Shown here: positions 1-10,078 of the stretch, one piece after another
Layout of the letters: each line of letters starts with the position of its first letter
How positions within the stretch are numbered: position 1 is the first letter of the stretch
Assembly (NCBI GenBank): GCA_905612295.1
Contig: CAJQRN010000042.1
Span: 1-48,333, forward strand
Reading direction: 5' to 3'
Source: an uncultured Candidatus Nitrosopumilus sp.
GTDB taxonomy: Archaea; Thermoproteota; Nitrososphaeria; Nitrososphaerales; Nitrosopumilaceae
Length of the DNA stretch: 48,333 nt
The notes under the pieces: generated by a model
Database searches by the model: none
Seen by the model: the letters and a program-made list of their open reading frames with translations, nothing else
What the model was told of the DNA's origin: nothing
Program-made: the position numbers and the translations under genes

Positions 1-251
1 AAGCAGATCTTGATGGATTTATTGAAACATCTCAAAAACCAGTTTCAGGTACTGTGAAACTAAAGATGTACAAAGGAAGTTTAAGGGTAGTAGGTAGAAA
101 ATCAGATAATTCTTTGTACAGTCACGATATTGCCACTTATGGAGCAGAATCCACATTTGACCAAAGATTAGCTAAAGGTTTTGTAGAATTATGGGGAATG
201 CAGTCAACGGAAGCTAATAAATTACAAAAGAAAAGGAAAAGTAAAACATGA
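1..251 (+). CDS. argG: argininosuccinate synthase, C-terminal end (partial)
   Basis: Only the last 82 codons are present; the reading frame enters from the left edge with its first full codon at base 3. The segment reading ADLDGFIETSQKPVSGTV followed by a KLKMYKGSLRVVGRKS-type stretch matches the conserved C-terminal multimerisation region of ArgG, which condenses citrulline and aspartate in arginine synthesis. The internal GTG at 54 is just a valine of this region, not a start. The TGA stop (249-251) overlaps the ATG of the downstream lysW (ATGA), so the two are probably translationally coupled. That places an arginine gene at the head of the first LysW/ligase pair. Identity is confident; nothing can be said about its promoter. 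Confidence 0.9.
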   Translation, partial: ADLDGFIETSQKPVSGTVKLKMYKGSLRVVGRKSDNSLYSHDIATYGAESTFDQRLAKGFVELWGMQSTEANKLQKKRKSKT

Positions 252-415
252 ACTGTCCAGAATGTGACGCAAAACTCAACATCCCAGAAGATGCCTCAGT
301 TGGAGAGATAATCTCTTGTCCTGATTGTGGAGCTGACTTTGAAATTTCTAAAAAAGAAGGATCAAATATTGAGCTTAAACAAGCAGAGACTGTAGGCGAA
401 GACTGGGGAGAGTAA
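248..415 (+). CDS. lysW: LysW-type amino-group carrier protein 1 (Glu terminus)
   Basis: A 55-aa acidic zinc-ribbon protein with Cys3/Cys6 and Cys24/Cys27 (CPEC and CPDC), ending in EDWGE. LysW family proteins protect the alpha-amino group of glutamate or alpha-aminoadipate by an isopeptide-type bond to the side chain of the C-terminal Glu, so that kinase, reductase and aminotransferase can act. Its ATG overlaps the argG stop (ATGA), and its TAA shares one base with the next ATG (TAATG at 413-417). The order argG-carrier-ligase suggests this copy serves arginine/ornithine synthesis, but that is inference from position. A second carrier lies at 7945-8112. Confidence 0.93.
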   Translation: MNCPECDAKLNIPEDASVGEIISCPDCGADFEISKKEGSNIELKQAETVGEDWGE

Positions 416-1272
416 TGTCAAAAATTAGCATTGTTTTTGACCGTTTAAGAACGGAAGAAAAAATGCTCCAAAAGGCGGCCGCCGAATTAGGCCATACCGC
501 AATTATGTTAGATGCCAAAATTACTCAAATCAATACAGATAGTAAAAAAGATGATTTTGATTTAGGAGATGTAGTGTTAGAAAGATGTGTAAGTTATTTT
601 CGTGGTCTTCATTTTACATCAGCTTTAGAATTTTTAGACATTCCAGTTTTAAACAAATTTGATGTTGCAAGTATTTGTGGAAATAAAATGTTCATGACAT
701 TACTTTTAAAAAAAAATAACATTCCAACACCAAAAACATATTTTTCATTTTCAAGTCAAAGTGCTGCTGAAAATTTAGAAAAAGTAGGATATCCACTAGT
801 AATCAAACCAGTAATAGGAAGTTGGGGAAGAGGTGTAATTCCAATTAAAGATAAAGATGCAATGGAAGCAATTTTTGAAATTAGAGATATCACAGATAGT
901 CCCCACGATAGAATTTATTATTTACAACAAGTTGTAAAAAGACCACCAAGAGATATTAGAATAATTACAATTGGGGATGAGGCAGTTGCTGGAATGTATA
1001 GAAAATCATCTGGTGGTTTTAAAACAAATATTGCCTTAGGAGCAGATCCAGAAATTTGTGAAATTACAAAAGAAATGGAAGAGTTAGCAATTAAATCATC
1101 AAAAGCAATGGGTGGAGGTATTTTAGGAATTGATATGATGGAAGATGAAGAAAGAGGAATAGTAGTACATGAAGTTAACAATACAGTAGAATTCAAAGGA
1201 TTAGCAAAAGTTGCAAAAAGAAACATACCAAAAGAAATGATAGAATTTGCGTTAGATTATGTTAAAAAATAA
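415..1272 (+). CDS. ATP-grasp LysW ligase 1 (LysX/ArgX family, probably ArgX)
   Basis: A 285-aa RimK/LysX-type ATP-grasp enzyme that joins an amino acid to the C-terminal Glu of LysW using ATP. Visible features are the N-terminal strand KISIVFDRLRTEEKML, the nucleotide-binding stretch PLVIKPVIGSWGRGV (about residues 127-141), a KRPPRDIRI segment, and the metal-binding HEVNNTVEFKG motif near residue 253. The start overlaps the lysW stop by one base, and argG lies just upstream, so glutamate (ArgX activity) is the likelier substrate than alpha-aminoadipate. The paralogue at 8109-8948 sits beside homocitrate synthase. Family assignment is secure; substrate is inferred from neighbours only. Confidence 0.88.
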   Translation: MSKISIVFDRLRTEEKMLQKAAAELGHTAIMLDAKITQINTDSKKDDFDLGDVVLERCVSYFRGLHFTSALEFLDIPVLNKFDVASICGNKMFMTLLLKKNNIPTPKTYFSFSSQSAAENLEKVGYPLVIKPVIGSWGRGVIPIKDKDAMEAIFEIRDITDSPHDRIYYLQQVVKRPPRDIRIITIGDEAVAGMYRKSSGGFKTNIALGADPEICEITKEMEELAIKSSKAMGGGILGIDMMEDEERGIVVHEVNNTVEFKGLAKVAKRNIPKEMIEFALDYVKK

Positions 1273-1312: not shown

Positions 1313-1642
1313 TTATCGTGGAAAATAAAACATTATAGAAACACCAATTAAAACCACAATAGAACCAAAAATTTCAAATCGGTCAGGTTTTTTCTTATCT
1401 ACCCAATACCCCCACAATAAAGAAGATATTACAAAAATTCCACCGTATGCGGCATAGACTTTTCCAAAATTTTCAGGTTGTAAAGTCATGATCACACTAT
1501 ATGAAAATAAAATTAGCCCTCCAATTAATCCAATAATTTTACCTTGATGATTTTTTAACCATCGCCATATCAGATAGCCACCACTAATTTCCAATAATGC
1601 AGCAAAAAAGAAAATGCCAATAGAAGTTAGCATGTCAATCAA
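1313..1642 (-). CDS. YnfA/UPF0060-type small membrane protein A
   Basis: A 109-aa hydrophobic protein with four predicted membrane segments (about residues 5-25, 34-53, 64-84, 90-107). It has the YnfA/UPF0060 hallmarks: EISGGYLIWRWL in helix 1 and GKVYAAYGGIFV in helix 3. YnfA belongs to the small-multidrug-resistance-like superfamily, whose members work as dimers; a substrate is not evident here. Its ATG (1640-1642) overlaps the end of the upstream paralogue (stop at 1639) by four bases, an ATGA-type coupling. It converges with the ligase gene ending at 1272. Family confidence is high, function unknown. Confidence 0.82.
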   Translation of the reverse strand: MIDMLTSIGIFFFAALLEISGGYLIWRWLKNHQGKIIGLIGGLILFSYSVIMTLQPENFGKVYAAYGGIFVISSLLWGYWVDKKKPDRFEIFGSIVVLIGVSIMFYFPR

Positions 1643-1989
1643 ATTTTTTCTCCTTTTCTAGGATAGTAAAAAATTATTAAAATTCCAATTACGGCAATAA
1701 TGGTTCCAATTACATCATAATTATCAGGCATCACTCCATCAATTAGCCATCCCCAAAAAACAGACATCACAATAAACACACCACCGTATGCGGCATAGAC
1801 CCTATGAAAATGAGTTTTTTGGAATGTCGGCACAATTCCATAAAAAAATAATACAAATCCACCCAGTGCGCCCAACATCCAACTAAAATCATTTCTCAAC
1901 CACAACCAAACAAGATATCCACCACCAATTTCTAAAAATCCAGCAATCACAAAAAGGAGTAAAGAAGTTAGGATTGTTTTTGGATACAA
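1639..1989 (-). CDS. YnfA/UPF0060-type small membrane protein B
   Basis: A 116-aa four-helix membrane protein and paralogue of the gene at 1313-1642. It shares EIGGGYLVWLWL in the first helix and RVYAAYGGVFIVMS in the third. Two adjacent, overlapping paralogues of a normally single-copy dimeric small transporter-like family suggest a heterodimeric pair, by analogy with paired SMR proteins. No substrate can be read from the sequence. The ORF may start at base 1989; the A/T-rich stretch at 1990-2060 is the presumed promoter region. Confidence 0.8.
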   Translation of the reverse strand: MYPKTILTSLLLFVIAGFLEIGGGYLVWLWLRNDFSWMLGALGGFVLFFYGIVPTFQKTHFHRVYAAYGGVFIVMSVFWGWLIDGVMPDNYDVIGTIIAVIGILIIFYYPRKGEKI

Positions 1990-2088
1990 GTTAAATCATA
2001 ATTATTTTTAAAGATGAGCATAAAAAGTTGCATTAAAAATTAATTTAAAAATAATTATTGTTCAAAAAGAGGAGAAAATTTAGAAAAA

Positions 2089-3057
2089 CTACGAGGTCTT
2101 GTTTAATTTTGACAATAATGCAGCATAAATGAAAGGTAAGATTGTAGTAACTTCTGCATGTAATGTAGATTGTTTTGCAGTTTGTGTGACTTTTCCCCAT
2201 GAAATTGCTTCTCTAACTAATGCACCACTTAAACTTCCATCAAATTCTTGGGCAGTTGTAATATAAAATGCATAATCCAATCCATCACGATATTGATTCC
2301 ACCATAGTGTATGATGTTTTGAAATTCCACCACCAATCATGAATGCTCCTGATTTTTTAGCTTTGAAAATTAATCCAGAAAGTAAATTGGCATCGCCAAA
2401 TAAATTTAATTTGAAATCACCATGGGATTGTGAAAACATCCAAATTTGATTTCCAACTGCACCATCCATAATTCCAGGTACAACTATACTGATATCATTT
2501 TTGTAAGCCCAGTAAAGAAAAGAATCTTCACCCAAATGTTTTCCAATCATTTTACATATTTCAGCGGTATTCATTTCTCGAACTCCTGCAGCATATTCTT
2601 CTTCCAAAAATGCAGTCATTTTTTCTTCAATAAGTGGACCGTAACTATCCATTGGAACTAATACATTTCCTAATCTGTGAATATGTTGATTTGCCAATTC
2701 CATATCATCCATTGTAAATGATCCTTCATTGTAATGTGAAAAGTGTCTCGCAATATCATGATCTAAAGCTCCACACGTAGTTAGTCCAACATCAAACCAT
2801 TTATTTTTCATCATGTCTTTGATAATTCCCCTCAATCCTGTTGACACGATTGCTCCAACAAATGATATGAATTTGAGACATTTATCATCAGAAATCATTT
2901 CTGTTAAAATCTCTAAACCATCAGATAAATTTACAGATTCAAATCCTCCAGATTGAGATAATTCTTGAAAGATGTTTTCGATAGAAGTATTGGAATCTAT
3001 TTTTATATCTTTTACAGGACGACCTACATCAATCATAACAAAAATTTCATCATACAT
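2089..3057 (-). CDS. dys: deoxyhypusine synthase
   Basis: A 322-aa NAD-dependent enzyme that transfers the aminobutyl group of spermidine to a lysine of aIF5A, the first step of hypusine formation. Diagnostic segments are GRPVKDI near the N-terminus, GAIVSTGLRG, LTTCGALDHDIAR, GDANLLSGL, the GGGISKHH loop, and DYAFYITTAQEFDGSLSG followed by SWGKV, which carries the catalytic lysine. An ATG at 3055-3057 gives the length listed. A second in-frame ATG at 3036 (MIDVGRPVKDI) is about 30 nt from the A/T-rich box at 3061-3070 and could be the real leaderless start. It separates the two LysW blocks without functional relation to them. Confidence 0.93.
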   Translation of the reverse strand: MYDEIFVMIDVGRPVKDIKIDSNTSIENIFQELSQSGGFESVNLSDGLEILTEMISDDKCLKFISFVGAIVSTGLRGIIKDMMKNKWFDVGLTTCGALDHDIARHFSHYNEGSFTMDDMELANQHIHRLGNVLVPMDSYGPLIEEKMTAFLEEEYAAGVREMNTAEICKMIGKHLGEDSFLYWAYKNDISIVVPGIMDGAVGNQIWMFSQSHGDFKLNLFGDANLLSGLIFKAKKSGAFMIGGGISKHHTLWWNQYRDGLDYAFYITTAQEFDGSLSGALVREAISWGKVTQTAKQSTLHAEVTTILPFIYAALLSKLNKTS

Positions 3058-3184: not shown

Positions 3185-3206
3185 CTCCATTAATTGAAGA
3201 TTGAAC

Positions 3207-4253
3207 ATGAAAGTAGGAGTAGTAGGAGCATCAGGATATGTAGGTGGAGAAACACTTCGTCTTCTTGTAAACCATCCAGAAGTTGAAATCAGCATGGTAA
3301 CATCAAGACAGCATGTTGGAGAATATTTGCATAGAATTCAACCAAGTTTAAAGGGATTTACAGATCTTACTTTTTCAGAATTAGATTATGAGAAATTAAC
3401 TGATCAATGTGATGTAGTTTTTACAGCAGTGCCGCATGGAACTGCAACTGAAATTGTGAAAGCACTCTACGATAGAGGCATCAAAGTGATTGATTTGAGT
3501 GCAGATTATAGATTACACGACCAAGAAGCATATGACAAATGGTATGGTTGGAAACATCCACATCCAGATTATTTACCAAAATCAGTTTTTGGAGTTCCAG
3601 AATTGCACAGAGAAGAAATAAAAAAAGCACAGCTTGTTTCTTGTCCAGGATGTATGGCAGTTACTTCAATGCTAGCACTAGCACCATTAATTAAAAATGA
3701 CATTATAGATACAGAACACATTATTGTTGATTCAAAAATTGGATCATCTGGCGCAGGTTCTGGTTCAGGTACAGCACATGCAATGCGAGCAGGAGTTATC
3801 AGACCATACAAACCAGCAAAACACAGACACACAGGAGAAATTGAACAAGAACTAAGTGCAATTGCAGGGAAAAAAATCCGTGTTTCAATGAGTCCACATG
3901 CAGTAGATGTAGTTAGAGGTATCCTATGTACAAATCACACGTTTATGAAAAAAGATATCACTGAAAAAGAGTTATGGAAAATATATCGCGAAGCATACGG
4001 TGATGAGAAATTCATTAGATTGATTAGAGATAAAAAAGGATTGTACAAATTCCCAGATCCAAAATTCTTAGTAGGTTCAAACTTTTGTGATATAGGATTT
4101 GACATAGATGAAGATAACAATAGATTAATTGCTTTATCAGCATCAGATAATTTAATGAAAGGTGCAGCAGGTTCTGCTATTCAAAACATGAATGTTATGT
4201 GTGGCTTTGATGAAATGAGCGGACTAAGATACACACCATTAACTCCAGTTTAG
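3207..4253 (+). CDS. lysY: LysW-aminoadipyl/glutamyl-phosphate reductase (LysY/ArgC family)
   Basis: A 348-aa NADPH-dependent semialdehyde dehydrogenase-type reductase. The Rossmann motif GVVGASGYVGGETLRLL is at the N-terminus. The catalytic cysteine lies in SCPGCMAVT (about residue 150), followed by the GSSGAGSGSGTAH loop and KHRHTGEIEQEL with the conserved histidines. In LysW pathways the enzyme reduces the acyl-phosphate made by LysZ, often for both lysine and arginine routes. The start was set at ATG 3207 (MKVGVVG) rather than TTG 3201 because of the TATA-like box spacing and family N-termini. Two bases separate its stop from the lysZ ATG. Confidence 0.93.
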   Translation: MKVGVVGASGYVGGETLRLLVNHPEVEISMVTSRQHVGEYLHRIQPSLKGFTDLTFSELDYEKLTDQCDVVFTAVPHGTATEIVKALYDRGIKVIDLSADYRLHDQEAYDKWYGWKHPHPDYLPKSVFGVPELHREEIKKAQLVSCPGCMAVTSMLALAPLIKNDIIDTEHIIVDSKIGSSGAGSGSGTAHAMRAGVIRPYKPAKHRHTGEIEQELSAIAGKKIRVSMSPHAVDVVRGILCTNHTFMKKDITEKELWKIYREAYGDEKFIRLIRDKKGLYKFPDPKFLVGSNFCDIGFDIDEDNNRLIALSASDNLMKGAAGSAIQNMNVMCGFDEMSGLRYTPLTPV

Positions 4254-4255
4254 AA

Positions 4256-5059
4256 ATGATCACAATTAAAATCGGCGGAAGTGTAGTAGACGATTTACAC
4301 CCATCAACAATTACAGATATTAAAAAAATTGCAGAATCAGAAGGAGTAATCATAGTTCACGGAGGAGGAAAAGAAGTGACAAAAGTTTGTAAGCAATTAG
4401 GGAAAGAACCAAAATTTGTAACATCTCCAAGCGGCATTAAGAGTAGATATACAGACAAAGAAACTGCAGAAATTTTTACAATGGTAATGTCAGGTAGAAT
4501 AAATAAAACAATTGTTCAAATGTTACAAAAAAATGGAATTAATGCAATCGGATTATCTGGAGTTGATGCAAGAATAATAGAAGCAGATAGAAAGAAAAAA
4601 CTATTGATTATAAATGAAAAAGGTAGAAAACAAGCAATTGATGGAGGATATACAGGTAAAATTAAAAATGTTAATTCAGAATTTATCAAATCGTTACTTA
4701 AACAAGGCCTAACACCGGTAATTTCACCAATAGCAATTAGTGAAGAATCAGAATTTCTCAACATAGATGGGGACAGAGCTGCAGCATATGTAGCAGGAAG
4801 TATAGGATGTGACAAAGTATTATTCATTACAAATGTAGATGGACTTTTAATGGATGATGAAGTAGTAGCAAAATTGACTTTAGCAGAAGCAAAAGAAATT
4901 AGACCAAAAATAGGTCCAGGTATGGAAAAGAAAATCTTAGCATCCACAGAAGCATTAGATATGGGAGTTAAACAAGCATTTATCGCAAATGGTCAAAAAG
5001 AAAATCCTGTTTCTTCAGCTATTGCACATGATAATTGTACGGTGATTGAACATGAGTGA
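4256..5059 (+). CDS. lysZ: LysW-aminoadipate/glutamate kinase (LysZ, ArgB family)
   Basis: A 267-aa amino-acid kinase-fold enzyme that phosphorylates the side-chain carboxylate of the carrier-bound amino acid. The N-terminal TIKIGGSV, the glycine-rich VHGGGKEV, SRYTDKET, GINAIGLSGVDA and NIDGDRAAAYVAG match the ArgB/LysZ family. Only one kinase gene is present although there are two carriers and two ligases. It therefore probably serves both lysine and ornithine synthesis, as reported for Sulfolobales. It lies two bases after lysY and overlaps lysJ by eight. Confidence 0.93.
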   Translation: MITIKIGGSVVDDLHPSTITDIKKIAESEGVIIVHGGGKEVTKVCKQLGKEPKFVTSPSGIKSRYTDKETAEIFTMVMSGRINKTIVQMLQKNGINAIGLSGVDARIIEADRKKKLLIINEKGRKQAIDGGYTGKIKNVNSEFIKSLLKQGLTPVISPIAISEESEFLNIDGDRAAAYVAGSIGCDKVLFITNVDGLLMDDEVVAKLTLAEAKEIRPKIGPGMEKKILASTEALDMGVKQAFIANGQKENPVSSAIAHDNCTVIEHE

Positions 5060-6227
5060 AGATCAACATATGGGAAATCTCTATCAGAGATTTCCAGTTA
5101 CAATTGAAAGAGGTGTTGGGGCTCATGTTTGGGACATAGAAGGAAAAGAATACATCGATTGTATGGGAGGATATGGAGTAGCATTAGTTGGACATCAAAA
5201 TCAAAGAGTTAACAACGCAATCAAAGAACAAGTTGATAAAATAATTACTGTACATAGTTCATTATACAATAAAACAAGAGAAGGCTTTTTGAAAAAATTA
5301 ATTGAAATAGCTCCAAAGGGATTAACACAAGTTCATCTTAACAATAGTGGGGCAGAAGCAGTTGAAGCTGCAATGAAATTTGCGAGAAAGTTTACAGGGA
5401 AAAAAGGAATGGTTGCAATGAAAGGATCATACCATGGAAAATCATTTGGAGCATTATCATTAACATTTAATCCAAAATATAGAAAAGCATTTTCACCTTT
5501 AGTTGAAAAAGTTTCTTTTGCATCATTTGGAGATATGGATTCACTTCGTTCCGTAATTGATGAAGATACAGCATTCATTATTTTGGAACCTATTCAGGGA
5601 GAAAGTGGAATAGTTGTTGCACCAGATGGATTTTTACAAGAAGTGAGAAAACTATGTAATGAAAAAGGAATCCTACTAATTTTTGACGAAATACAAGCAG
5701 GTCTTGGAAGAACTGGTCGATTATGGGCAGGGGATCATTGGAATACGGTACCAGATATTTTATGCCTTGCAAAAGGAATTGCAGGAGGAGTACCGATGGG
5801 TGCAACATTAGTCAGACCAGATATTTTAGCAGTAATAAGCAAAGGAGAACACTCATCAACATTTGGCGGGAATCCAATATCATGCGCAGCTGGAATTGCA
5901 GCATTAACAGCAATTACAGAAGATGGTCTAATTGAAAATTCTAAAAAAATGGGAGAAATGTTCAAAGAAGGATTAGAAAAATTGAAAGAAAAACATACAA
6001 TGATTAGAGAAATTAGAGGTAAGGGGCTAATGATTGGAATTGAAATGAAATTTGAGGTAAAAAATATTTTGATGGGGTTAATTGAAGAAGGTGTCTTGAT
6101 GTTATATTCAGGAAGAAATATTCTTAGAATATTGCCCCCATTAGTGATTACCGAAGGAGATGTAACAAAAGTTTTAGATGCATTAGATGTTGTAATAACT
6201 AAGGAAGAGGAAAAGAAAAATGTTTAA
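5052..6227 (+). CDS. lysJ: LysW-gamma-lysine/ornithine aminotransferase (LysJ)
   Basis: A 391-aa class-III PLP aminotransferase. Family marks are GGYGVALVGHQN, the PLP phosphate-binding NNSGAEAVEAA, the SYHGKSFGALSLT segment, ILIFDEIQAGLGRTG, and the PLP lysine in CLAKGIAGGVPMGA. It converts carrier-bound semialdehyde to LysW-lysine or LysW-ornithine with glutamate as donor. ATG 5052 was chosen over TTG 5046. It overlaps the lysZ end (stop 5057-5059) by eight bases and the regulator downstream by eight, so all four genes are tightly coupled. Confidence 0.93.
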   Translation: MSEDQHMGNLYQRFPVTIERGVGAHVWDIEGKEYIDCMGGYGVALVGHQNQRVNNAIKEQVDKIITVHSSLYNKTREGFLKKLIEIAPKGLTQVHLNNSGAEAVEAAMKFARKFTGKKGMVAMKGSYHGKSFGALSLTFNPKYRKAFSPLVEKVSFASFGDMDSLRSVIDEDTAFIILEPIQGESGIVVAPDGFLQEVRKLCNEKGILLIFDEIQAGLGRTGRLWAGDHWNTVPDILCLAKGIAGGVPMGATLVRPDILAVISKGEHSSTFGGNPISCAAGIAALTAITEDGLIENSKKMGEMFKEGLEKLKEKHTMIREIRGKGLMIGIEMKFEVKNILMGLIEEGVLMLYSGRNILRILPPLVITEGDVTKVLDALDVVITKEEEKKNV

Positions 6228-6639
6228 AGATAAAGTTGATGAAAAAATTGTAGGATATCTAAAAGAAGATTCCAGAGAATCATTTGTAGATATTGGGAAA
6301 AAATTAAAACTGTCAGAATCAGCAGTTAGAAGACGAGTTAAAAATTTAGTAGATAGTAAAACAATTAATAAATTTACAATAGAATTAGGTGAGGAAAATA
6401 TCACAAGTGCAATTGTTTTAGTTTCAGTAGATTCTGCAACAGACACATCAAAAGTATCTCTAAAGCTTGTAGGGTTAGAAGGAGTGAAAACAGTTTATGA
6501 AATTACAGGACAATATGACATTACAACAATAATTAGCGCACCAAATATTGCAGAAATTAATAACACCATAGATGCATTAAGAAAAATCACAGGGGTAGTG
6601 GATACCAATACTGTGATTATTTTAAGAAAAGTTATCTAA
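6220..6639 (+). CDS. Lrp/AsnC-family regulator in the lysine operon (LysM-like)
   Basis: A 139-aa protein with an N-terminal AsnC-type helix-turn-helix (VGYLKEDSRESFVDIGKKL, then LSESAVRRRVKNL) and a C-terminal RAM ligand-binding domain containing the VYEITGQYDITTII pattern. Location inside the lysYZJ operon makes it a strong candidate for the lysine-responsive local regulator, comparable in position to Sulfolobus LysM. The start at 6220 overlaps lysJ by eight bases and is preceded by the purine-rich GGAAGAGG at 6202-6209. Likely target sites are upstream of 3207 and 6756. The effector has not been shown. Confidence 0.87.
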   Translation: MFKDKVDEKIVGYLKEDSRESFVDIGKKLKLSESAVRRRVKNLVDSKTINKFTIELGEENITSAIVLVSVDSATDTSKVSLKLVGLEGVKTVYEITGQYDITTIISAPNIAEINNTIDALRKITGVVDTNTVIILRKVI

Positions 6640-6755: not shown

Positions 6756-7922
6756 ATGAAAGATCCGAATCACTATGCAAATATCTACAACGGATATGAA
6801 AAGAATCCAAAAAAGATTAGAGTGTTAGATAGTACACTAAGAGAAGGTGAGCAACATCCGGGTGTTTCATTTACAAATAAACAAAGAATTCAGATTGCAT
6901 GGATGCTAGATTATTTTGGAGTGGATCAAATAGAAATTTCACCAATAGTATCAAAAGATCATAAGGAAGCAACTAAAACAATTATCAAACAAGGACTAAC
7001 AGCAGATATTGTATCACATGGACGTGCACTTAAGGAAGATATTGATACATCATTAGACTGTGATGCAAAATGGTGTGCAGCATATTTAGGAATTTCAGAC
7101 ATACATCTAAAAGACAAATTACGAATATCCAGAGAAGAAGCTTTGGAAAGAGCAGTGGGAACAGTAGAGTATGCAAAGTTGCATGGATTAAAAATTAGAT
7201 TTACAGTAGAAGATGGAAGTAGAGCAGAACCAGAATTTTTACTAACGGTATGCAAAGCAATTGAAGAAGCAGGTGTAGATAGAATTAGTCTTCCAGATAC
7301 AGTTGGAATTTTACGTCCAATTGGAATGTATAATTTTGTAAAAAAAGTTAGAGAAGTTGTAGATGTTCCATTAGATGCGCATGTTCATAACGACATTGGT
7401 TTTGCAGTAGCAAATGCATTTTCAGCATGTGATGCAGGGGTTGATCAAATCCACACCACTATTGATGGTATAGGAGAAAGAACAGGTATACCAGCACTTG
7501 CAGAAGTTGCAGTAGCACTAACTTACCTGTATAAATCTCCAAATGATTTTAGATTAGATATGCTATTAGATTTATCAAAATTAATTGAAGATTATACAGG
7601 AATCAAACCATATGATTCAAAACCAATCGTAGGGACATCAGCATATAAACACAAAGCAGGTACACATCTTGCAGCAATTTTAAAGAATCCAGCAGCTTAC
7701 GAACCAATCCCACCAAGAGCTGTTGGAAATAGAAGAAGAATAGTATTTGGTGAATTGGCAGGAAAAACAGGTGCAGCCTACTTGATGTCGTTACTAGGGT
7801 TAGAAAAAGACGATATAGGTGCAAAAGCAGTGGCAGCAGGACTAAAAAATCTAAGAATGGGTGATCTAATAGAAATCCCACTTGAAGATAGACTTGAAAA
7901 AAAGATAATTGAAGATAAATAA
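6756..7922 (+). CDS. homocitrate synthase (LysS/HCS family)
   Basis: A 388-aa member of the DRE-TIM metallolyase family that condenses acetyl-CoA with 2-oxoglutarate to open the alpha-aminoadipate route. It shows RVLDSTLREGEQHPGVSF (catalytic Arg and metal Asp), the HGRALKEDI helix, the catalytic ISLPDTVGI segment, and the HVHNDIGFAVANA metal-binding histidines. Relatives are isopropylmalate and citramalate synthases. The context (lysW, lysX, lysK downstream) and the absence of a leuA-type C-terminal regulatory domain favour homocitrate synthase. The next gene, lysW2, starts 22 bp after its stop. Confidence 0.88.
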   Translation: MKDPNHYANIYNGYEKNPKKIRVLDSTLREGEQHPGVSFTNKQRIQIAWMLDYFGVDQIEISPIVSKDHKEATKTIIKQGLTADIVSHGRALKEDIDTSLDCDAKWCAAYLGISDIHLKDKLRISREEALERAVGTVEYAKLHGLKIRFTVEDGSRAEPEFLLTVCKAIEEAGVDRISLPDTVGILRPIGMYNFVKKVREVVDVPLDAHVHNDIGFAVANAFSACDAGVDQIHTTIDGIGERTGIPALAEVAVALTYLYKSPNDFRLDMLLDLSKLIEDYTGIKPYDSKPIVGTSAYKHKAGTHLAAILKNPAAYEPIPPRAVGNRRRIVFGELAGKTGAAYLMSLLGLEKDDIGAKAVAAGLKNLRMGDLIEIPLEDRLEKKIIEDK

Positions 7923-7944: not shown

Positions 7945-8112
7945 ATGTCAAAATGTGAAGAATGTGATGCAGAGATATCATTGCCAAGTGATGCACTTGA
8001 AGGTGAAATTGTAACATGTCCAGAATGCGGCGCAAGTTTTGAATTAGTAAAAAGCTCAGAAGGTTTCGATCTAAAGCCAGCTCAAACAGTTGGTGAGGAT
8101 TGGGGACAGTGA
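7945..8112 (+). CDS. lysW: LysW-type carrier protein 2 (Gln terminus)
   Basis: A 55-aa LysW paralogue with zinc ribbon Cys4/Cys7 and Cys25/Cys28 and an acidic tail. The C-terminus reads GEDWGQ: the last sense codon is CAG (8107-8109), where carrier 1 and the classical family have GAG/GAA. In known LysW the gamma-carboxyl of the terminal Glu carries the substrate, so a Gln cannot be charged in the standard way without deamidation or another chemistry. Its TGA (8110-8112) overlaps the GTG start of the adjacent ligase (GTGA). Position after homocitrate synthase points to lysine synthesis. Start ATG 7945 gives exactly the same length as carrier 1. Confidence 0.9.
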   Translation: MSKCEECDAEISLPSDALEGEIVTCPECGASFELVKSSEGFDLKPAQTVGEDWGQ

Positions 8113-8948
8113 CCGATGTTACAATTCTTTATGACTCCATACGTTGGGAAGAAAAATCTCTTTTAGAAGCAGGTAAAAAAAAGAACATCAACATACAGAT
8201 GGTAGATTGTAAAAAACTGGCATTAGATTTAGAAAAAAAGCCTGAAGACTATGGAGTAGTTATTCAAAGATGTGTAAGCTATTATAGAAATTTACATGCA
8301 ACTGCAGCTCTTGAAGGATTAGGAGTTAAGGTAATCAATTGTTTAAACACAGGAGTTTTTGCAGGAAATAAATTATTTACACATATGTTACTAAAGAAAT
8401 TTGGAGTTCCAACACCAGATGCCACAGTGGCGTTTTCTAAGGATGCAGCGTTAGAAGCATTAGAAACAAACGGATATCCAAAAGTAATAAAACCAACAGT
8501 AGGTAGTTGGGGAAGATTAATTTCAAAATTAAATGATAAAGAATCAGCTGAAGGAATAATTGAAAGTAGAGAAACAATGTATCCAATTTATCAAATTCAT
8601 TACTTGGAAGAATTTGTCAAAAGACCACCACGAGACATTAGAGCAATTATGGTAGGAGATAAAATAGTGGCTGCCATATACAGAAATTCAGAACATTGGA
8701 AAACAAACATGTCATTAGGCGGAACTGCTGAACCGTGCAAAGTAACACAAGAAATGGAAGAAATGTGTATCAAAGCAAAAAATGCAGTTCAAGGAGATAT
8801 CGTAGGTGTAGATTTAATGGAAAGTGAAGAAAAAGGCCTTGTCGTTCATGAAGTTAACAATACAACAGAGTACAAAAATACTGTAAGAGTATGTGATGTA
8901 GACATACCATCTCTAATGCTAGATTACGCACTAAAAGTAGAAAGATAA
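8109..8948 (+). CDS. lysX: ATP-grasp LysW ligase 2 (LysX family, probably alpha-aminoadipate)
   Basis: A 279-aa LysX/RimK-type ATP-grasp enzyme. Conserved parts are DVTILYDSIRWEEKSL, the ATP-binding PKVIKPTVGSWGRL, KRPPRDIRAIMVGDK, and the metal site HEVNNTTEYKN near the C-terminus. It would link alpha-aminoadipate to carrier 2. The best start is GTG 8109, which overlaps the lysW2 stop as GTGA, mirroring the overlap in the first pair. A TTG at 8100 is also open but lies inside lysW2. It differs from ligase 1 just after the glycine-rich loop (SWGRLISKLND versus SWGRGVIPIKD), consistent with different carriers or substrates. Confidence 0.9.
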   Translation: MTDVTILYDSIRWEEKSLLEAGKKKNINIQMVDCKKLALDLEKKPEDYGVVIQRCVSYYRNLHATAALEGLGVKVINCLNTGVFAGNKLFTHMLLKKFGVPTPDATVAFSKDAALEALETNGYPKVIKPTVGSWGRLISKLNDKESAEGIIESRETMYPIYQIHYLEEFVKRPPRDIRAIMVGDKIVAAIYRNSEHWKTNMSLGGTAEPCKVTQEMEEMCIKAKNAVQGDIVGVDLMESEEKGLVVHEVNNTTEYKNTVRVCDVDIPSLMLDYALKVER

Positions 8949-8950
8949 AA

Positions 8951-10078
8951 TTGGACAATCATTTCACAGTAACCCCAAAGTTTGCAACAAAGATGTTAGA
9001 AAAAGCACTTCGACTGTACACACCGTCACTTAGTGAAAAACCAATGGCAGAATTTTTAGCAGATAAGTGTGATGATTTAGGATTTGAAGATATACAAATT
9101 GACGAAGTAGGAAACGTTATTGCAAAAAAAGGAACAGGAGAACCACGAATAATGTTATGTGGTCATATGGATGTAGTACCAGGAAAAGTAAAAGTTAGAA
9201 CAGAAGGTGATTCATTGTATGGTCGTGGGGCATCAGATGCAAAAGCACCATTAATGGCAATGTTGTTTGCTGCAGCATCAATTGAAAAAAATCAAGGAAC
9301 GGTAATTTTTGTAGGTGCGGTGGATGAAGAAGGGAATGCAATAGGAATTAAAAATATTGTAAAAAAAGAAATGAAAATTGATTATGCAGTGTTTGGAGAA
9401 CCAAGTGGAATTAAGCAAGTAACAATTGCATACAAAGGCAGATTAGCAATTAATCTAAAAATCAGTGTTCCAGATAGTTCACATGCAAGTGCACCGTGGC
9501 TTTCAAAAAATGCAATTGAAGAATCAATAATATTTGTAAAAGAATTAAAAGAAAAATTGGAAGCAAATCAAGATGGAAAAACTAAATCAATGTTGTTAAC
9601 TGCAACCATTACTGAAATCAAGGGCGGGACAAGTCACAACATAACACCAAAAGAGTGTGAAACTCTTTTTGACATAAGAATTCCAGTAGACATGAATTGT
9701 AAAACAATTGAACAGAAAATTGCAACTTTAGTTAAAGAAATAGCTCAAAATAGGGAAGTTGAAGCATTTTATTCAATTTTAGATGAAACGGAACCATTTG
9801 AAGCACCACATAATTCAGCATTAGTTAGAGCATTTACACTAGGAATAATACAAGTAGTAAAATCCAGACCAACTTTAGTTAGAAAAACAGGTACAGGGGA
9901 CATGAATGTTTTAGGCAGTCAATGGAAAATTCCAGTTGTAACGTATGGTCCAGGGGATCCACATGAAGCTCATACAATAGATGAAAAGGTTTCAATTGAG
10001 GAATATCTAAAAGGTATAGAAATTCTCAAAGCAACTTTACAGCATTTAAAAAGACTTCATGATAAAAAATTACAATAA
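8951..10078 (+). CDS. lysK: LysW-lysine/ornithine hydrolase (LysK, M20 family)
   Basis: A 375-aa zinc carboxypeptidase-like hydrolase that releases lysine or ornithine from the carrier. Metal and catalytic motifs of the M20 family are visible: MLCGHMDVVPG (metal His, catalytic Asp), YGRGASDAKAP (bridging Asp), VGAVDEEGNAIG (catalytic Glu pair) and, near the C-terminus, YGPGDPHEAHTIDE (metal His). Being the only deacylase-type gene here, it must release both product types if both carriers are used. The start is TTG 8951, three bases after the lysX2 stop; the first in-frame ATG is 14 codons further in. Confidence 0.9.
   Translation: MDNHFTVTPKFATKMLEKALRLYTPSLSEKPMAEFLADKCDDLGFEDIQIDEVGNVIAKKGTGEPRIMLCGHMDVVPGKVKVRTEGDSLYGRGASDAKAPLMAMLFAAASIEKNQGTVIFVGAVDEEGNAIGIKNIVKKEMKIDYAVFGEPSGIKQVTIAYKGRLAINLKISVPDSSHASAPWLSKNAIEESIIFVKELKEKLEANQDGKTKSMLLTATITEIKGGTSHNITPKECETLFDIRIPVDMNCKTIEQKIATLVKEIAQNREVEAFYSILDETEPFEAPHNSALVRAFTLGIIQVVKSRPTLVRKTGTGDMNVLGSQWKIPVVTYGPGDPHEAHTIDEKVSIEEYLKGIEILKATLQHLKRLHDKKLQ

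Follow-up and report, generated by a model that had tools for sequence, protein, structure and literature searches.

The second LysW carrier encoded in the window, by which we mean the whole 48,333-nucleotide stretch of DNA analysed here, ends in glutamine, and carriers of this kind occur in the majority of ammonia-oxidizing archaea as well as in four or more other families of the phylum. In our view LysW2 is a working pro-carrier, whose terminal Gln amide would be hydrolysed once to Glu before the carrier is loaded, with LysK as the most economical candidate for this step; we put the probability of this reading at about one half. The conversion of Gln to Glu is what we infer from comparison of the sequences, and the role of LysK is inferred more weakly, by analogy.

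The window (contig C42) belongs to an assembly of 0.90 Mb that is 73% complete, and an archaeal amoA gene on another contig of the same assembly (C5) identifies the organism as an ammonia-oxidizing archaeon. The carrier and pathway genes are collected in Table 1. The translation of lysW2 is MSKCEECDAEISLPSDALEGEIVTCPECGASFELVKSSEGFDLKPAQTVGEDWGQ, which reads TVGEDWGQ immediately before the stop, and translation of both carrier genes confirmed the starting observation of the original prediction, that LysW2 ends in GEDWGQ and carrier 1 in GEDWGE. The two carriers reach 90.7 and 89.3 bits (the latter being LysW2) with the LysW/ArgW carrier model NF041070 (NCBIfam, cut-off 75), and both pass Pfam PF21344, LysW2 with 50.6 bits against a cut-off of 27. 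The metal-binding residues of the zinc ribbon (CxxC...CxxC) are kept in LysW2, which fits the LysW/ArgW family profile and has the expected context of an adjacent GSWGR ligase and the pathway genes for LysZ, LysY, LysJ, and LysK, but departs from the family definition at its C-terminus, where EDWGQ stands in place of EDWGE with a terminal Glu. This profile and context place LysW2 with the LysW/ArgW carriers as a Gln-ended variant, distinct from the canonical Glu-type LysW. The signature EDWG[E/Q/D/H]-stop occurs twice in the window and 0.00 times in shuffled sequence. The GTG start of lysX2 overlaps the stop of lysW2 (CAGTGA / GTG), its carrier-recognition motif GSWGR is intact, and its matches in the PDB are 3vpd, 1uc8, and 5k2m. 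The lysK gene lies two genes downstream of lysW2, after lysX2, and the closest structure to its product is the [LysW]-lysine hydrolase 5xoy. Between argX and lysY the window also holds, at 1313-3057 on the minus strand, two small membrane-protein-like ORFs and a deoxyhypusine synthase-like gene; lysY directly follows argX in a related genome (G191, locus L288), and the block is thus an insertion or a local difference.

Table 1. Carrier and pathway genes in the window, with the profile matches and features that support each assignment.
Feature	Position	Strand	Assignment and support
lysW1	248..415	+	Second carrier, arginine side; EDWG-Glu end (GEDWGE)
argX-type ligase after lysW1	415..1272	+	TIGR02144, 287.6 bits; in Arg-type group of ligases
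lysY/argC	3201..4253	+	Reductase; TIGR01850; beside lysZ and lysJ, conserved cluster
lysZ/argB	4256..5059	+	Kinase of [LysW]-aminoadipate/[LysW]-glutamate; NF010662, 309.9 bits (cut-off 194)
lysJ/argD	5046..6227	+	Aminotransferase; TIGR00707
Lrp-type regulator	6220..6639	+	LysM-like; NF040947, 179.3 bits (just below cut-off 180)
Homocitrate/isopropylmalate synthase-like gene	6756..7922	+	Directly upstream of lysW2; PF00682, PF22617; TIGR02146, 367 bits (sub-cut-off)
lysW2	7945..8112	+	55-aa zinc-ribbon amino-group carrier; EDWG-Gln end; CAG 8107-8109, TGA 8110-8112
lysX2	8109..8948	+	RimK-type ATP-grasp ligase, LysX (alpha-aminoadipate) type; TIGR02144, 329.9 bits (cut-off 275.6)
lysK	8951..10078	+	M20-family [LysW]-lysine/ornithine hydrolase; TIGR01902, 282.9 bits (cut-off 163.1)

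Among the carrier-2 orthologues first fetched in the genus, nearly all end in CAG (Gln) and two in GAG (Glu), and since the CAG codon recurs in independent assemblies the terminal Gln is not an assembly error. A pattern search found an EDWGQ-stop carrier in 277 of the 400 genomes of the order, which further rules out an error of sequencing or assembly and answers the check proposed in the original prediction, an alignment of orthologues for the last residue: they do not all end in Glu. Counted by hand, the pattern is present in 205/232 genomes of Nitrosopumilaceae (f1), 6/7 of the Nitrosocaldus type (f2), 66/70 of Nitrososphaeraceae (f8), and 0/91 of all the others, the three names having been assigned through named records with the same kind of sequence. 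The 27 Nitrosopumilaceae genomes without EDWGQ-stop comprise five with two Glu-ended carriers and others with at most one carrier tail each. The ammonia oxidizers of family f3 and genome G083 of the Nitrosocaldus type have amoA and two Glu-ended carriers, yet no Gln-ended one, so the Gln end is common in ammonia oxidizers and not obligatory for ammonia oxidation. Neither is it exclusive to them, an idea that was dropped when 200 genomes from across the phylum were scanned and true Gln-ended LysW came up also in families f25, f30, f48, and f51; one Gln-ended carrier from each of the four passes the LysW model. The f48 genome (G519) resembles what we take to be Ignicoccus hospitalis. Two further apparent variants were discarded as chance matches, the Gln match in f24 (G429), where a carrier in the same stretch is Glu-ended, and the EDWGD-ending carriers of f10, where the single example read has stops upstream. 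In a scan of the whole GTDB, the non-archaeal matches that were listed and read have DWGQW, with TGG and no stop after the Gln; the pattern used demanded residue T-N ahead of the Gly context, and the scan gives no basis for a claim of exclusivity. The literature that we searched held no text with EDWGQ and no discussion of a Gln-ended LysW. Two side observations concern the same carriers: in f25 operons (L311-L318), which encode LysW-Gln, LysX, and LysK, the third zinc-ligand position is His-containing (GELFEHEECGAHLEL), and Cenarchaeum-like genomes (L249, L081) have a second carrier ending in DWGQ with no adjoining ligase gene.

The genomes that encode only Gln-ended carriers indicate that these must work. 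Nitrososphaera-type genomes (genus g51) G092, G122, and G119, the last of which we take to be N. viennensis, have two Gln-ended carriers and zero Glu-ended ones. In the complete, single-contig Nitrosocosmicus-type genomes G043, G077, and G085, ArgX, LysX, and all the pathway genes are in one cluster with a single carrier, which is Gln-ended, and no carrier gene is found upstream of argX, so that both ligases appear to share one Gln-ended carrier. Several f25 operons have a further ligase beside LysY, which suggests that one Gln carrier is used by two ligases there too. In the Nitrosocosmicus-type loci L281, L282, and L283, argX directly follows a gene that reads as argG-like, and the arginine-side carrier is missing. 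DAP epimerase is present in 0/14 ammonia oxidizers and in 9/14 control genomes. N. viennensis is grown in an amino-acid-free medium that contains ammonium, bicarbonate, and pyruvate, and an amino-acid mixture failed to support its growth (PMC4129164). With Gln-only carriers, no DAP epimerase, and growth free of amino acids, lysine has to pass over a Gln-encoded carrier, and in the Gln-only genomes arginine probably does so as well. An uncharged regulatory or decoy role for the Gln form is therefore extremely unlikely; this is the outcome that the original prediction had set against its own reading. Nitrosopumilaceae do have a Glu-ended carrier as well, which would fit such a role, but Nitrososphaera-type and Nitrosocosmicus-type genomes have neither a Glu-ended carrier nor DAP epimerase, and in the ammonia-oxidizer clusters that were read lysW2 is followed by lysX and lysK.

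The last codon itself has hardly changed. In 102 Nitrosopumilaceae sequences its first base changed once, compared with a mean of 23.5 changes at the 40 fourfold sites of lysX2 and 13 at the third position of the adjacent Gly codon. Substitutions of C by G are intrinsically rarer, and the end region of lysW2 is in part a ribosome-binding and start overlap, so this conservation argues strongly for a constraint on the site and moderately for the amino acid itself as its cause. The codon could also be kept at the nucleotide level by the overlap with the lysX2 start, the amino acid being irrelevant, and the Glu51 codon and the stop, which in Nitrosopumilaceae are always GAG and TGA, are invariant as a ribosome-binding site and a start overlap predict. 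This explanation is almost certainly wrong, however, since GAG as the last codon preserves the same GTG overlap, as in the Glu revertants, Gln is also found on Arg-type carriers, and it persists where the lysX start is further downstream (f8) or the stop is TAA or TAG (f2 and f8), which helps the reading in terms of the amino acid. Decay of the gene, already doubted in the original prediction, is ruled out by Gln being a single, constrained state, and lysW2 is intact.

In order to follow the terminal residue across lineages, the type of each carrier (Lys or Arg) was assigned from the neighbouring ligase. Gln is on the lysine carrier in Nitrosopumilaceae and in the Nitrosocaldus type, and among the genera of Nitrososphaeraceae it is on both carriers in g51, g20, g62, and g63; g44 has it on the lysine carrier alone, and g53 and g57 have it on the arginine carrier alone. 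Gln and Glu switch at least six times on the tree of Lys-type ligases and at least three times on that of Arg-type ligases. The four placeable Glu sequences of the window's genus form one clade (SH-aLRT 97) nested within Gln relatives, and two Glu clades of Nitrososphaeraceae (SH-aLRT both 100) are likewise nested among Gln. On these trees the end has switched at least nine times overall, and returns to Glu are among the well-supported changes. Within the lysine carriers of Nitrososphaeraceae, no other carrier position tracks the switch. The idea that the terminal residue is an orthogonality tag, with Gln marking the lysine carrier and Glu the arginine carrier, was rejected because both carriers end in Gln in several genera of Nitrososphaeraceae and g53 and g57 show the opposite pairing.

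The next matter is the bond through which a Gln-encoded carrier is loaded. Characterised LysW and ArgW proteins end in Glu and bear the amino acid on its side chain (PMC10433800). Were the Gln carriers loaded through another bond, a difference in their ligases would be expected. When the 4 Glu-partner lysine ligases in the Nitrosopumilaceae set were compared with the 106 Gln-partner ones, zero positions separated them, and across four independent contrasts of Gln- and Glu-partner ligases any one position tells the groups apart in two contrasts at most; co-evolution of the ligase with the switch was looked for in these contrasts and not found. The ligase residues GSWGR, R54, R178, R192, N200, D235, E238, E248, N250, and E254 show little or no variation. 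Residue 167 of lysX2, which adjoins the conserved Glu of a '-QE-' motif, is E in almost every lysine-type ligase from ammonia oxidizers and Q in arginine-type and most other ligases, and tracks the type of ligase, not the Gln or Glu end of the carrier. LysZ is present as one copy per genome in 20/20 genomes tested, and Nitrosopumilaceae have one LysZ and one LysK per genome, common to the Glu-ended and the Gln-ended carriers, which argues for one linkage. The simplest reading of these sequences would be that both carriers finish as Glu, the Gln having been hydrolysed first. Alternatively there may be no deamidation, and LysX would load the Gln-ended carrier through its terminal alpha-carboxylate, or would activate the side-chain amide and displace it with loss of ammonia. 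This is conceivable for a ligase whose RimK-family relatives are, by their family names, alpha-glutamate ligases, and attack of a side-chain amide oxygen on ATP has been proposed for Dop with PupQ (PMC8599861). We nevertheless consider direct loading unlikely, as no ligase position follows the Gln/Glu switch, the same single LysZ and LysK must handle both kinds of carrier in one cell, and replacement of Glu54 by Ala in Natrinema ArgW resulted in arginine auxotrophy (PMC10433800), so that ArgW function depends on this side chain. A deamidation step borne by the ligase, which the original prediction had also entertained, is not favoured either, because no ligase position tracks the switch. If direct loading were true, it would be a new amino-group-carrier chemistry, present in the same cell as the classical gamma-glutamyl carrier.

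In the reading with hydrolysis of the Gln, LysW2 would be encoded in a protected 'pro' form, the side-chain amide of its C-terminal Gln (gamma-CO-NH2) being hydrolysed once to give Glu. LysX would then attach alpha-aminoadipate through the gamma-carboxylate of the primed carrier in the usual manner, LysZ, LysY, and LysJ would process the carrier-bound aminoadipate, and LysK would free lysine and regenerate a Glu-ended carrier; since LysK restores the Glu end, one priming event per carrier molecule would be enough and no repeat would be needed. LysK may itself be the priming enzyme, as its normal reaction is to cleave the gamma-glutamyl amide between LysW and lysine, and LysW-Gln is chemically the simplest amide of this kind, with ammonia where lysine would be. 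LysK is present in 20/20 genomes tested and adjoins lysW-lysX in the clusters read, and a copy-number search of ammonia oxidizers turned up no other close LysK. The residues H72, D96, E126, E127, E150, and H341, which we take to be its active site from what is generally known of the M20 family, are kept, and groups with Gln-ended carriers have the same active site as those with Glu-ended carriers only. The presence of LysK also in Glu-only lineages fits the repeated appearance of Gln in unrelated families, and the sequence does not single LysK out. M20 hydrolases cleave mostly N-substituted amides, and LysK may reject the unsubstituted one. Priming that came free would predict drift between Gln and Glu, and the constraint in Nitrosopumilaceae requires that Gln bring some benefit of its own. 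Such a benefit might lie in shielding the carrier, while it is free, from other RimK-type ligases, or in verifying the presence of LysK ahead of loading.

The amide could instead be hydrolysed by a dedicated protein-glutamine deamidase, LysK being uninvolved. The same comparative evidence as for priming by LysK would apply, and a lineage-specific enzyme could explain why Gln is common in ammonia oxidizers and found in 0/91 other genomes of the order. The Gln carriers of the distant families f25, f30, f48, and f51 would, however, require such an enzyme to be widespread or repeatedly acquired, and the clusters read, searched for the known pathway genes, showed no new gene alongside the carrier. 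A dedicated deamidase was not found, and CheD, a known protein-glutamine deamidase, occurs in only 5/21 genomes tested, with no Nitrosopumilaceae or Nitrosocosmicus-type genome among the five, a sparse distribution that rules it out as the general LysW-Gln deamidase; a dedicated enzyme thus seems to us rather improbable. Still less credible is that the active pool is a small LysW-Glu fraction, made by mistranslation (Glu-tRNA-Gln escaping the archaeal amidotransferase) or by slow spontaneous deamidation. The carrier is recycled, so that one event per molecule would suffice, and some of the families with Gln carriers are presumably hyperthermophilic, but most of the carrier would be idle, selection would have no reason to keep Gln, and Gln is kept in mesophiles too, such as N. 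viennensis with its optimum of 42 °C (PMC4129164).

The textbook rule is that the terminal Glu of LysW bears the amino acid, and many lineages encode Gln at that very site. As some of these organisms appear to have no other carrier, an unrecognised step must, on the genomic evidence, make the Gln carrier work, either a deamidation that primes the carrier for amino-acid synthesis, of the kind seen with Pup, or a different carrier bond. This bears on the essential biosynthesis of lysine and arginine in organisms that drive nitrification, and affects annotation and metabolic models, which assume a Glu carrier.

The LysW/ArgW system itself is known, and the Gln-ended form is a new variant of it. 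With the carriers of Thermus, Sulfolobus, Thermococcus, and Natrinema, LysW2 shares the zinc ribbon, the length, and the EDWG tail, as well as a neighbouring LysX/ArgX and the common LysZ/Y/J/K set, and it differs from the characterised proteins in the Gln that replaces their amino-acid-bearing Glu (PMC10433800). LysX2 has the fold of, and belongs to the same family as, the RimK-family alpha-glutamate ligases (RimK, MptN, and CofF), but it fits the LysX model far better (329.9 bits) and bears the carrier motif GSWGR. The comparison with Pup made in the original prediction is apt, since the Gln form of Pup is deamidated by Dop, which also cleaves the Pup conjugate and does both jobs because deamidation and depupylation are chemically equivalent (PMC8223512, PMC8599861). 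Pup, too, is a small modifier that ends in Gln or Glu depending on the lineage, a switch seen in LysW on both types of carrier, and its conjugation through the gamma-carboxylate, with a hydrolase for the same gamma-glutamyl amide bond, is what would be predicted for LysW-Gln. In contrast, Pup is a disordered degradation tag handled by the glutamine-synthetase-like PafA and Dop, whereas LysW is a folded zinc ribbon in biosynthesis, served by an ATP-grasp ligase (LysX) and an M20 peptidase (LysK), and the relation between Pup and LysW2 is thus best regarded as one of analogy, not homology.
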